Assembly: GCA_003136185.1 (NCBI GenBank)
Contig: PLDN01000081.1
Span: forward strand, 1 to 32,354
Length of the DNA: 32,354 nt
Direction: 5' to 3'
Source of the DNA: Acidimicrobiaceae bacterium
GTDB lineage: Bacteria; Actinomycetota; Acidimicrobiia; Acidimicrobiales; Bog-793
The notes under the pieces were generated by a model. The model searched no databases, was not told the origin of the DNA, and saw only the letters and a program-made list of their open reading frames with translations. Positions 5,804-13,299 of this stretch are shown here, piece by piece; positions within the stretch are counted from its first letter, which is position 1; every line of letters starts with the position of its first letter. The translations under genes were made by a program, and so were the position numbers.

Positions 5804-6294
5804 CGCGCTCAACGGTCAACTCGGTGGCAACACGAACCCCAACAAACGTCATCGAGGTACATGCCGACGTCTGGTGCCCGTTCGCGCACGTCGGCCTCCG
5901 CTCGGTGCGCGAGCGCAGAGGCGAGCTCGGCCGAGACGAAGTCATTCTCGTCGTCCGAGCGTGGCTGCTCGAACTGGTCAACGGAGCGCGGGGCAGCTCC
6001 ACGCGCCGGCCAGAGGGTCGCGCTCACGACGGGACCGCAGTGTCCTAGATCCGAGACCCGCTGCCTTGCGGGCACGGACTCGGGCTTGGGCGGCTCGCGA
6101 CTGGCTCAGCAGGTGCTCCCGTTTTCGATCAGCGTTTACACCGCCCGCACCGCCGAACCTCGTCGCGCACTACCAGCGAGGTCATCGCGTGAGCGCGTCG
6201 CTACGCAGACGTTGGGCCCGCGGCTTCCGCCGGCCATGAGCTCGCGGCACTGTCGACACCCGAGGCGAGCCTCGCGGGCGGCATCGCGTCGGGT
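5800..6294 (+). pseudogene. Truncated DsbA-family thioredoxin-fold gene
   Basis: The first 57 or so codons (5800-5970) read IEVHADVWCPFAHVGLRSV and DEVILVVRAWLLELVNG, the opening strand, active-site helix and second strand of DsbA/FrnE/HCCA-isomerase-like proteins (W-C-P-F at the redox site, one cysteine). The expected continuation (a P-L-E-L-V-N-G-x-P-L segment and the helical insert) is lost: the frame becomes arginine/serine-rich and stops at 6048 after 82 aa. A normal family member has about 200-220 residues. In the following 250 bases, fragments in other frames (for example RVSASLR near 6187) loosely resemble the R-V-S-x-A-L-R helix of the family, which fits a gene with several indels. 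The ATGA overlap with the DsrE-like gene shows it belonged to the sulfur operon. Confidence 0.6.
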
Positions 6295-8874: not shown

Positions 8875-10479
8875 ATGAATAATACGCCTGCTCTCGCGGC
8901 TGAAACTCTTGCAGACCTGGTACGAGGTGCAGCTGATCGGTGGGCAGACCGGCCGGCTCTCATCTTTGATGATCCCAAGACAACTCTAAGCTTTGCAGAT
9001 ATCGAAGCAGGTACGAATGCTATTGCCAATGTCTTGGCTGACATCGGTGTGGCCTATGGGAACAGGGTCGCTGTCATGCTTCGGAACCGGCCAGAGTTTC
9101 CCCTGATATGGCTCGCTCTCGCGAAGTTGGGTGCCGTGATGGTACCTGTAAATGTCTACTACCAAGAGACGGATGCCGCATTTGTCTTATCTCATTCCGG
9201 TGCAACAATGATCATTACCGAAGGAGACTTTGTTCCGCTCGCGACGAAAATGCGGGGGAAGGTTGCAACAGTCCAACTGGTCGTGTCGATTGAGAATGTA
9301 GAGGAGAGTGCCACTATAAAGTCACTGGCGGCACGATTGCCCGGTGCTCCGAAGTCTGTACTATTGCAGCGGCAGATCTACCCCGAGACAATCGCGAACA
9401 TCCAGTACACCTCTGGGACAACTGGCAAACCTAAAGGATGTATGTTATCCCACAAATATTGGTGCCGGCTCGGCCGCATTGTGGCAGATGGACCTCCAGA
9501 GCTCTCAGAGACAGACGTCCTACTCACAGCGCAACCATTCTACTATATGGACCCTCAATGGAATTTGACGGGGGCCTTCCAAGTGGGTGCTACTCTGGTC
9601 GTTCTGGACAGGTTCCACCCGTCGACGTTCTGGAGCAAAGTCCGAGAGTACCATGTCTCATTCTTCTATTGTCTGGGTATGATGCCCGCTGCTATGTACG
9701 CTATGCCACCATCTGGGCTCGACCGAGAACACGAGGTACGAGCCATCTCCTGCTCAGCGATTCCCACGCGCCTCCATGCCGCTCTTGAGCAGCGATGGGG
9801 GGTTCCGTGGTATGAAGCCTTTGGTATGACAGAGACCGGGGGTGACCTGCGCATCCAGCCACGAGATCATGACGACACGATCGGGAAGGCGTGTATTGGG
9901 CGGCCCTACTATGACAGGGAAGTCCGCGTCGTGGATTCAGATAACCAGCAGGTGCCGCGTGGGACTCAAGGAGAGATGGTCCTTCGCGGTGTAGGGATGA
10001 TGGAGGGATACTTCGAAGATGAGGAGGCCACCAATAGAGCATTTGTCGGTGGCTGGTTCCATACGGGCGACCTCGTGCGCGAGGATGAACAGGGGCGGAT
10101 CTTCTATCTCGGACGGACGAAAGATACGATCCGCCGGAGCGGAGAGAACATCTCTGCGGCGGAAGTGGAAGGAGTGCTGATCGAGCATCCCGACGTCTTC
10201 GCGGCGGCTTGTGTTCCCGTTCCCGACGACCTTCGGGGCGAGGAGGTAAAGGCGTATGTCGTGCTGCGAGAGGGCGTTCCAGAAGGGTGGGTGCCTCCCG
10301 AGGCGCTCAGCAAATGGTGCTCGGATCGCCTCGCCTACTTCAAGGTGCCACGCTTTTGGACGTTCGTGGGAGACCTACCTCGTACCCCCTCCGAGCGGGT
10401 TGCCAAGTCCGTCCTGGTCGAAGGGGTCACGGACCTGCGTGCCGGTGCCTTCGACTCGGTAGAGGGCACATGGCGGTGA
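8875..10479 (+). CDS. CaiC-like ATP-dependent acyl-CoA ligase (AMP-forming)
   Basis: A 534-aa class I adenylate-forming enzyme of typical length. It has the P-loop YTSGTTGKPKG at 178-188, the YEAFGMTETG motif, GWFHTGDLVREDEQGRIFYL (hinge aspartate), and GRTKDTIRRSGENISAAEVE. It is expected to activate a carboxylic acid with ATP and CoA; overall wording resembles crotonobetaine/carnitine-CoA ligases and actinobacterial relatives. The C-terminal A10 region reads PRTPSERVAK: the lysine of the usual G-K-V is arginine (R508), with lysine at 511. The start has AAGGAGAAGG upstream. The 5' two thirds is noticeably AT-richer than its neighbours, with codons such as ATA and TTA, while the last 400 bases are GC-rich, which hints at recent transfer or mosaic origin. 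No partner enzyme is adjacent on the same strand. Confidence 0.9.
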   Translation: MNNTPALAAETLADLVRGAADRWADRPALIFDDPKTTLSFADIEAGTNAIANVLADIGVAYGNRVAVMLRNRPEFPLIWLALAKLGAVMVPVNVYYQETDAAFVLSHSGATMIITEGDFVPLATKMRGKVATVQLVVSIENVEESATIKSLAARLPGAPKSVLLQRQIYPETIANIQYTSGTTGKPKGCMLSHKYWCRLGRIVADGPPELSETDVLLTAQPFYYMDPQWNLTGAFQVGATLVVLDRFHPSTFWSKVREYHVSFFYCLGMMPAAMYAMPPSGLDREHEVRAISCSAIPTRLHAALEQRWGVPWYEAFGMTETGGDLRIQPRDHDDTIGKACIGRPYYDREVRVVDSDNQQVPRGTQGEMVLRGVGMMEGYFEDEEATNRAFVGGWFHTGDLVREDEQGRIFYLGRTKDTIRRSGENISAAEVEGVLIEHPDVFAAACVPVPDDLRGEEVKAYVVLREGVPEGWVPPEALSKWCSDRLAYFKVPRFWTFVGDLPRTPSERVAKSVLVEGVTDLRAGAFDSVEGTWR

Positions 10480-10985: not shown

Positions 10986-11308
10986 GCCTCGTCTCCTTTT
11001 CCTCCACCGATGGTTCCCATCGAGCACCGCCAGCATGCCAGCTGAGCGGCGAGTGCCAGGCGACCATCGCACAAGCCTCCATCCGGCCCGATTTCGAAGG
11101 GGATCGCACATGTGCTGGCCTGTCCGGCGGACACCGGTGCGGAACCCACGAGCTTTTCGATCTGGGACGCTCGCAGCGCGCTCAACCCGCCGAGAGCTTT
11201 AGCGGCTCTTCGGATCTGACCGGACTTCGGCGGGTCATTCGCGTAAGCCCAGCTAGATGGGGGCGAGCAGAGAAGGTGTTCCCACTTCGCGTGACTTGAA
11301 CGCCCTGG
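10986..11308. other. Intergenic stretch upstream of the ABM-like gene
   Basis: A leftward open frame of 67 codons (11185-10982, TTG start, ribosome site GGCGGG) ends with a GTGA overlap at the ABM-like start. It contains an E-I-G-P-D-G-G-L-C-D-G stretch and cysteine-rich tail but matches no family I know, so I leave it uncalled. The rest shows no gene or hairpin of note. Confidence 0.4.
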
Positions 11309-11685
11309 TCAGGCGACTGTGGCCTTGTCCCAGGCTGAGATGTCCACGCCGAAGGTCCGCAAAACCGTGGCCTGTAGCTGAGTAGGCCTCGTGACGAGCT
11401 CGATGGTGCGCTCGCCGGCGTTCACTTGCGCGAGGCGAATCTCGGCCAGCTCGACGAGTGCGCGGCGCGGCGTCAAATGCTGGAAGGAAAGGCTCGGGTC
11501 CATCACCTTGGCCGCGACGAGGTCCTTGGCCATGACGGCTTCGATCGTCGCTGCCAGGATGCAGAGAGCGACGTGGCCCCTCACGCAGTCCTCGGTCCAG
11601 TGGAAGACCGGCCGTAGTGCGAGGAAGTCCTCGTGACTCTCTACCTTCGCTCGACGTTCTGCAGGCTGCGGTAGTAACACAGCAC
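11309..11685 (-). pseudogene. IS1634-like transposase, C-terminal remnant with frameshift
   Basis: The leftward frame contains DFLALRPVFHWTEDCVRGHV followed by ALCILAATIEAVMAKDL. These are the C-terminal transposase (DDE_Tnp_1) features of IS1634-type elements, in which a conserved glutamate-bearing segment is followed by R-P-V-x-H and R-x-R-x-H. The expected upstream part, CYYRSLQNVERR, sits at about 11644-11679 in another frame and runs into a stop. A frameshift therefore separates the two halves, and the whole N-terminal two thirds of the enzyme is gone. It cannot be active. Confidence 0.7.
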
Positions 11686-11723: not shown

Positions 11724-11976
11724 TTAGCTCTGGGTGCGTCTTTCACCGCGCTGACCGGCCACGACGCGCTCGGGGACCTCTTCGAGTTCGTGGATGGGAG
11801 GGTCGTCAGGATCGGTGATCCCCTCTTTCGCCGGCATCGAGGTGATCAGCCTGTTGCCTCGGCGGTGGTCTCGAGCGTTAGTCTCTCCACGCTCCAGTAG
11901 CCGGTGTCGGCGACGAACGAGCCGACACAGTCGGCGTCAGCTGTGGCGAGGTTCTCCTCGGTCGCCTTCACCTTCG
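11724..11976 (-). pseudogene. Second transposase remnant (IS1182/IS5-like DDE domain), frameshifted
   Basis: Reading leftward from about 11975, one frame gives ATEENLATADADCVGSFVAD followed by TGYWSVE, then a stop (TGA). Another frame continues LITSMPAKEGITDPDDPPIH and E-V-P-E-R-V-V-A-G. A-D-x-G-Y-W-S preceding a helix, then P-A-x-x-G-I-T-D-P-x-D-P, is a pattern I associate with transposases of the IS1182/IS5 superfamily. At least one frameshift and both ends are missing. It lies immediately upstream of the IS1634-like remnant, so two elements decayed at one spot. Confidence 0.5.
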
Positions 11977-12112
11977 GGGGCGAGCATGGTCAAGTGGAAT
12001 CCCACCAAGGCATGGGACGATAGCGCCTTGTCGGCTCTCGGATCCACAACGCGAAACGCCGAAGTCCGGTCAAACCGGATCAAGCCCACGCGTCGTCACT
12101 CGTCGACGGCCC

Positions 12113-12141
12113 TTGACGGGCGCGGCTCGTATCCCTATAGT
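12113..12141 (+). promoter_or_regulatory. Sigma70/SigA-like promoter of the TetR gene
   Basis: TTGACG at 12113-12118 and TATAGT at 12136-12141 are separated by exactly 17 bases, the best promoter match I see in the window. Transcription would begin near 12147-12149, giving a very short leader before ATG 12165. Confidence 0.6.
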
Positions 12142-12146
12142 TCTTG

Positions 12147-12162
12147 CCTAACGGCGATTAGG
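12147..12162. promoter_or_regulatory. Possible TetR autoregulatory operator
   Basis: CCTAACGGCGATTAGG has CCTAA and TTAGG arms around six bases. It sits at the expected transcription start, just downstream of the -10 box, where a TetR-type repressor would block its own promoter. Confidence 0.35.
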
Positions 12163-12288
12163 GGATGACGAACGACGACACACCGAGCGACCGAGGACGA
12201 CAATACTCCGCTGGCATCTACCCACGACCAAATCCTTGATGTAGCAGCGCAACTGTTCCTGGAGCGTGGATACGATGCCACAACCCAG

Positions 12289-12843
12289 GTGAGTATCGCG
12301 CGGCGCGTAGGTATTTCGGCCCCATCGCTCTACTGGCATTACAAATCGAAGGAGGATATACTATTCGCCTTTCTCGAGCGGCAGTGGATCGATTTCAGTG
12401 CTCGCATGAAGGAAGCGTCGGGGCAAGGAACGGCGACTCAACGCCTTCGAAATCTTGCGACCTCTCACGTTCGCTACGAAACAGATCGTTTGATAGAAGC
12501 ACGAGCATTCAGTCAGCAGTTCAGCAAGAGCCAACTGCATCGTACGCTACCGCCCGAGCGCAGGAAGATACTGCAGGGTTATCTCGACCGCTACCTGATG
12601 ATGTGCTGCTCTATCATCGAAGAAGGAGTGGCTGACGGCAGGTTTATGGTATCAAATCCACGGGCGGTCGGCTTCGCCATCATCAATATGTGCGAGACTG
12701 TAGCGGGTTGGTTCGATCCGTCTAACGTTCTCACTGCTGAGGCGATGGCAAGCCTTTATGGCGACTTAGCACTTCGGTTAGTTGGGGTTATAGCGGATCA
12801 GTCACCTGGCGAAGATGATGTCAGAGTCCAACCATCTCGATAA
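12289..12843 (+). CDS. TetR/AcrR-family transcriptional regulator (N-terminal start disturbed)
   Basis: The 184-aa frame from GTG 12289 starts in the middle of the DNA-binding domain: IARRVGISAPSLYWHYKSKE is helices 2-3 plus the start of helix 4. Helix 1 is encoded upstream in the same frame (QILDVAAQLFLERGYDATTQ, 12226-12285), but that frame has no ATG, GTG or TTG after the stop at 12166-12168. A plausible N-terminus, MTNDDTPSDRGRQ, begins at ATG 12165 in another frame. Either a one-base indel lies between about 12195 and 12225, or translation starts at a non-standard codon. The C-terminal ligand domain is helical, with a tail such as TetR_C_33-like proteins have. It probably controls the VOC, permease and SDR genes that follow in the same direction. 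Confidence 0.82.
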   Translation: MSIARRVGISAPSLYWHYKSKEDILFAFLERQWIDFSARMKEASGQGTATQRLRNLATSHVRYETDRLIEARAFSQQFSKSQLHRTLPPERRKILQGYLDRYLMMCCSIIEEGVADGRFMVSNPRAVGFAIINMCETVAGWFDPSNVLTAEAMASLYGDLALRLVGVIADQSPGEDDVRVQPSR

Positions 12844-12924
12844 ATCACACAACGTAAATAGCCTTAGGCAGGACCGGTGGGCAAGGGCGACTAGCCGAAC
12901 AGCGAGGGAAGAGGGGGAGTTGAG

Positions 12925-13299
12925 ATGACCTCAGGCTTAAGAATTGGGGCCTTTGTTGCCCCCGTCACGAATCTGGACCGAGCGGCCGCTTTCTACGCAA
13001 AACTGTTCGGATTCATCGAACAGTGGCGGATGGCGGGACTCGTCGTGCTGAGCACGAGTTCTGGGCAGCTCTGGCTTCTCGACTACGGCGGCAGGCTGGA
13101 GCCGGGCGGACGACCGACCCAGCTAGTGCTGTTCGTGAACGAGGGAGTCGACGAGTGGGAGGCGAAGGTAAGAGCCGAGGGATGTGAGATCAGCCAGACG
13201 CTCCATGACGACCCGCTTGGCCGGTTGTTCATCTTCGCTGACTCCGAAGGCAACCTCGTAGAGATCCGGCAACCGAGCGCGACTGTAGGCGGGTTCTGA
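12925..13299 (+). CDS. VOC-family (glyoxalase/dioxygenase fold) protein
   Basis: A 124-aa single-module vicinal oxygen chelate protein. The N-terminal beta-alpha unit is NLDRAAAFYAKLFGF, the middle strand is TQLVLFVNEGVDEWEAKVRA, and the end is GRLFIFADSEGNLVEIRQP, the family signature with its terminal metal-ligand glutamate. No histidine stands at the first ligand position (FVAPVTNLD), so metal binding may be incomplete and the protein may be a binding or accessory member rather than an enzyme. An AGGGGGAG site precedes ATG 12925. It lies between the regulator and the permease genes, in the same direction, and probably starts the catabolic transcript. Confidence 0.85.
   Translation: MTSGLRIGAFVAPVTNLDRAAAFYAKLFGFIEQWRMAGLVVLSTSSGQLWLLDYGGRLEPGGRPTQLVLFVNEGVDEWEAKVRAEGCEISQTLHDDPLGRLFIFADSEGNLVEIRQPSATVGGF

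Follow-up and report, generated by a model that had tools for sequence, protein, structure and literature searches.

Introduction

The closest described systems are PfmR (3vpr), AibR (5k7z/5k7h), FadR (3whb/3whc) and KstR2 (4w97), with which the TetR protein studied here shares the whole-chain fold, the helix-turn-helix followed by a TetR_C_24 domain, and an acyl-CoA-linked gene setting. It differs from these structures in being only 21-30% identical to them and in having no standard start codon in frame. Functional starts of other kinds are described for a few genes: in the part of PMC5472188 that was available, sigR of Streptomyces starts at GTC and is held down by IF3, and infC starts at ATT or ATC. 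Like the tetR gene here, sigR encodes a regulator without ATG, GTG or TTG at its functional start; unlike tetR, it belongs to another protein family and uses another codon, and its start is proven by mutation, whereas a non-standard start in tetR is a possibility (PMC5472188, same part). Initiation at CUG is rare, accounting for 0.024% of bacterial initiation codons and being 0.86% as productive as AUG, according to the portion of PMC11497404 at hand.

Here, we analysed a window, meaning the whole stretch of DNA of 32,354 nucleotides, which covers positions 1-32354 of contig C150 (33,050 bases) in a draft genome of 3.81 Mb and 193 contigs. The system is most likely an ordinary TetR regulator, a well-known kind, that probably represses itself. 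We favour, with moderate confidence, the explanation that an otherwise intact, probably self-repressing TetR gene has had its start codon, ATG 12165, put out of frame by a small indel before helix 1, as a real change or as an assembly or base error.

An intact TetR protein without a standard start ahead of helix 1

The coding features are as follows.
12169..12843, plus strand: open frame 1, which encodes the TetR protein P0002 (224 residues from stop to stop)
12232..12369, plus strand: TetR_N domain (PF00440), profile 1-46 of 47
12427..12783, plus strand: TetR_C_24 domain (PF17932), profile 2-114 of 114
12165..12239, plus strand: open frame of 24 codons that starts at ATG 12165 (frame 0) and is not in phase with the TetR domains, no Pfam match
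12211..12213, plus strand: CTG, candidate non-standard start, residue 15 of P0002
12289..12291, plus strand: GTG at residue 41, within helix 2, the first standard start of the TetR frame

The TetR frame opens after TGA 12166-12168 and stops at 12841-12843; between helix 1 and this stop the protein is uninterrupted and carries both domains. We found the TetR helix-turn-helix at 59.2 bits (PF00440, cut-off 24) and the all-helical ligand-binding/dimer domain at 66.2 bits (PF17932, cut-off 26.4). The predicted structure, a model from 17 aligned sequences, has a mean pLDDT of 87.9, with helix 1 at residues 18-33 and helix 2 at residues 40-47; pLDDT falls below 50 at residues 1-10, 12-14 and 211-215. 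Given that the residues before 15 are predicted to be disordered and lie outside the Pfam domain, a frame shift there leaves no homology trace.

In a Foldseek search the top PDB folds were 3him, DarR, 3dcf and PfmR, then KstR2, AibR and FadR (E 2.6e-9 to 1.5e-7 for 3vpr, 4w97, 5k7z and 3whb), and the best sequence match was 3vpr (PfmR). Matches were obtained to 19 NCBIfam families, and none among the matches listed reaches its cut-off; FadR scored 47.3 bits vs 200 and KstR 20.4 vs 280, so that the protein falls into no curated acyl-CoA-type family among these. An acyl-CoA type of ligand is a fair guess from the fold likeness and the neighbouring genes; since 3him and DarR rank equal or higher, the acyl-CoA link is not specific. 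The gene also differs from its surroundings in composition, with 53.1% G+C at 12232-12843 and 54.9% at third positions. The window as a whole has 62.7%, and 15 window genes average 74% at third positions, a difference that hints at acquisition from elsewhere.

ATG 12165 opens MTNDDTPSDRGRQYSAGIYPRPNP in its own frame, as the sequence-only reading had claimed, and this frame closes after 24 codons at 12237-12239. That reading had also placed helix 1 in a different frame lacking a standard start, which is true: from 12169 up to GTG 12289 the TetR frame contains no ATG, GTG or TTG. Upstream of helix 1 or within it the frame has solely non-standard near-start codons, namely ACG 12172, ACG 12175, CTG 12211, ATC 12232, CTG 12253 and CTG 12259, of which the last two lie inside helix 1. 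The open frame at 11794-12168, which is in frame with tetR and ends at TGA 12166-12168, gave no Pfam or NCBIfam match. In the genome, 26 TetR_N frames were detected at E <= 0.001 (25 of them above the family cut-off), and 25 of the 26 have a standard start in frame ahead of the domain, the sole exception being this tetR. The same holds for 52 of 52 homologous loci (L010-L057 and L084-L087), which are not independent of each other and in which the domain start was placed without gaps. Because such a start is present in these genome frames and loci, its lack here is real in the given sequence and is no habit of the TetR family. The absent start bears on expression, not on the identity of the encoded domains.

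The leader also contains an imperfect direct repeat, 12167-12180 and 12189-12202, spaced 22 nt. As a frame-shifting duplication it was rejected, its self-alignment being no better than shuffles (259, 303 and 268 of 400 shuffles equalled or exceeded the observed score in three stretches).

A candidate promoter ahead of the gene and two putative operators on either side

The regulatory features and the next gene are as follows.
12113..12141, plus strand: sigma-70-type promoter-like site TTGACG-N17-TATAGT, candidate, 10/12 consensus positions
12147..12162, no strand assigned: putative operator 1, CCTAA-N6-TTAGG, over the expected transcription start
12853..12868, no strand assigned: putative operator 2, CGTAA-N6-TTAGG, one mismatch, in the gap between tetR and the glyoxalase gene
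12925..13299, plus strand: glyoxalase-superfamily gene (PF00903), next downstream of tetR

Both elements noticed from the letters, the TTGACG-N17-TATAGT promoter and the CCTAA/TTAGG inverted repeat at the likely start point, are present. TTGACG lies at 12113-12118 and TATAGT at 12136-12141 with a 17 nt spacer, and a consensus scan of 11900-13000 returned two promoter-like sites vs 0.5 expected, scoring 10/12 (12113-12141) and 9. The inverted repeat, CCTAACGGCGATTAGG at 12147-12162, has its only exact match in the 3.81-Mb genome here. With at most one mismatch the pattern occurs at five places in the genome, each listed on both strands, and two of the five, 12147-12162 and 12853-12868, lie on either side of tetR. 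The reversed pattern has 27 occurrences, and the comparison with five sites indicates a rare motif rather than a genome-wide one. When the window was shuffled, a mean of 0.10 matches with at most one mismatch was obtained and none of 100 shuffles reached two; at two mismatches, however, the window has 3 matches vs 3.06 expected, which counts against the operator pair. With the other four genome sites treated as random, the chance expectation is 8.5e-5 in the 81-bp gap and 0.0016 in the 1.5 kb round tetR, and both figures are generous because this gap was not picked in advance. Of the three operator-like sites elsewhere, the one on contig C13 was read, and by eye it lies within an unrelated gene.

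The paired putative operators suggest that the TetR protein may repress its own gene and the operon downstream. Ahead of the glyoxalase gene the best promoter-like site scores 8/12, which is not good, so putative operator 2 might act by blocking passing transcription or by looping with operator 1. The operator pair is a testable prediction whichever reading of the start is true.

Elsewhere in the same genome, just upstream of another TetR gene (contig C13, L091 668-693), we observed the palindrome GACTATACCGTC-TG-GACGGTATAGTC. Its 12-base arms match perfectly, and it is a probable operator.

A small indel behind ATG 12165 is the favoured explanation

Of the standard starts between the promoter and helix 1, ATG 12165 is the sole one with a frame that remains open as far as the domain, and it is out of frame. 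It stands directly behind the promoter and the putative operator, which argues for an indel. Frames 0 and 1 are both open over 12169-12236, so a change of length is possible anywhere from ATG 12165 to about 12231. A one-base indel near 12195-12225 had been proposed to join the two frames; a length change does fit, and the range proposed was too narrow. As both domains are intact and free of stops, the lesion would be confined to the leader and, if real, would be recent.

We thus favour a TetR regulator gene (TetR_N plus TetR_C_24), otherwise intact and perhaps acyl-CoA-responsive, that would head a row of transport and catabolic genes. Transcription would probably run from the promoter at 12113-12141, and the product would repress its own gene by binding an operator that covers the transcription start; a second putative operator precedes the next gene. 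ATG 12165 would be the original start, and a small insertion or deletion would have occurred between it and helix 1, as a real recent mutation or as an assembly or base error. The data at hand do not separate a change in the organism from one in the assembly. A real shift may have cost the gene row its repressor in this population, although the constitutive pathway put forward in the sequence-only reading is a conjecture. In the case of a data error, gene callers that accept standard starts only would report a TetR protein lacking helix 1. Disruption, a wrong base call and an unusual start had been listed beforehand as the options; the set was the right one, with the first two undecided between themselves and an indel favoured over an unusual start.

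The main rival takes the sequence as right and the gene as working, with translation from CTG 12211 yielding MASTHDQILDVAAQ... in small amounts, so that the repressor stays scarce; we consider this unlikely. This codon lies three residues before helix 1, and its product retains a complete TetR_N (59.4 bits) with no indel needed. The non-standard starts of sigR and infC (PMC5472188, available part) provide a precedent. Using an assumed 16S tail, we calculated pairing energies of the preceding sequence of -6.0 for ATG 12165, -5.9 for CTG 12211 (22 nt) and -4.3 for GTG 12289, so that CTG resembles ATG; the 13 neighbouring starts listed, which are putative too, span -3.5 to -12.8. However, the only GAGG before CTG 12211, at 12193-12196, ends 14 nt upstream, which is far for a ribosome-binding site, some CTG would occur within 21 codons by chance in about 30% of cases, and the 52 homologous loci do without such a start. 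The indel is preferred to an unusual start owing to this distance and to the rarity of CUG and its low activity relative to AUG (PMC11497404, portion at hand). ATG 12165 is no textbook start either, since its purine stretch AGGGG abuts the codon instead of lying 5-10 nt upstream. Codon usage leaves the frames of the leader unseparated (whole-leader scores -0.3 for frame 0 and -1.9 for frame 1); in the sliding profile frame 0 leads at 12160 and frame 1 from 12190 on, weakly and within noise, and scoring over 14-15 codons is too weak for choosing a frame. If CTG were used, tetR would add to the small number of regulator genes with a characterised non-standard start.

A more elaborate form of the CTG start, which we regard as improbable, would make the autorepressor scarce by design, with CTG lying behind a short out-of-frame ATG leader directly after the operator, and with initiation fidelity and leader translation setting the amount of repressor. 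Fainter still is the prospect that the gene should be redefined by the internal GTG 12289, yielding a protein without helix 1. This GTG is the first standard start in frame, and the shortened product passes the TetR_N cut-off (30.8 bits vs 24), but it covers only profile 22-46 of 47, its first residue falls within helix 2, the codon has no visible purine-rich site upstream and the pairing energy is the weakest of the three. Reads confirming the sequence, together with a homologue starting at the internal GTG, had been named as the case that would overturn the broken start; no such homologue was seen, all 52 loci having a start upstream of the domain. Programmed +1 frameshifting from the ATG 12165 leader, for instance at CCT TGA 12234-12239, where frame 0 ends and the +1 frame is the TetR frame, and which we take to resemble a release-factor-2 type shift site, is scarcely credible, as it would put YPRPNP where helix 1 is predicted to begin (residues 18-33), no purine-rich stimulator is visible just upstream and the 52 homologous loci have an in-frame start instead.

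Relatives of the TetR protein are distant

An alignment with close TetR homologues had been suggested as a check on the start. The closest homologues found are about 37-39% identical, and for this reason no relative settles the start question. Among 60 relatives, 57 match at E <= 1e-3, the best besides the protein itself being 31% identical. By rank, the genus holds one genome, this one; the family gave 2 of 35 genomes at E <= 1e-15, itself included; the class gave 32 of 395 at E <= 1e-18 (best 35%); and the phylum gave 5 of 396 at E <= 1e-25, itself included (best 37%). The class and phylum sets are samples, scored for no more than 7 candidates in each genome, and may therefore have missed a closer relative. 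The genome_contigs collection yielded one locus (37%), plasmids 318 records, all under 60% and the first-ranked at 38.7%, and phages four records, all under 60%; viral_contigs yielded none. A shared neighbourhood was found only in the window's own genome, both when the amine oxidase served as query (E <= 1e-60 in 298 genomes of the order, up to 5 candidates scored in each) and when the glyoxalase protein did (E <= 1e-15 in 396 genomes of the phylum).

Gene neighbourhood and insertion-sequence relics

In the window, tetR is accompanied by genes for an acyl-CoA ligase, a glyoxalase-superfamily protein, two ABC permeases, SDR enzymes and FAD-dependent oxidoreductases, and further for a family-5 solute-binding protein, a CoA-ligase/ATP-grasp protein and an enoyl-CoA hydratase. 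At L029 4464-5980, the tetR of the top genome_contigs homologue (37%) directly follows an acyl-CoA-ligase-like gene, whose match (31% identity) ends at 5915, just ahead of the tetR ATG at 5980. The acyl-CoA ligase gene of the window (8875-10479) also precedes tetR, with an insertion-sequence relic between them.

This relic is of an IS1634-family transposase (11218-11631, minus strand), covering profile 395-482 only at 48.9 bits, under the cut-off of 100. It is decayed, and is thus broken sequence nearby with no bearing on the tetR start itself. A promoter supplied by an upstream insertion sequence was sought by blastn of two full-length relatives and the relics, which gave no match near 12113 at E <= 0.01. 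Over its 414 bases the relic is 73% identical to another relic on contig C101, and two longer copies are located on contigs C38 and C42.
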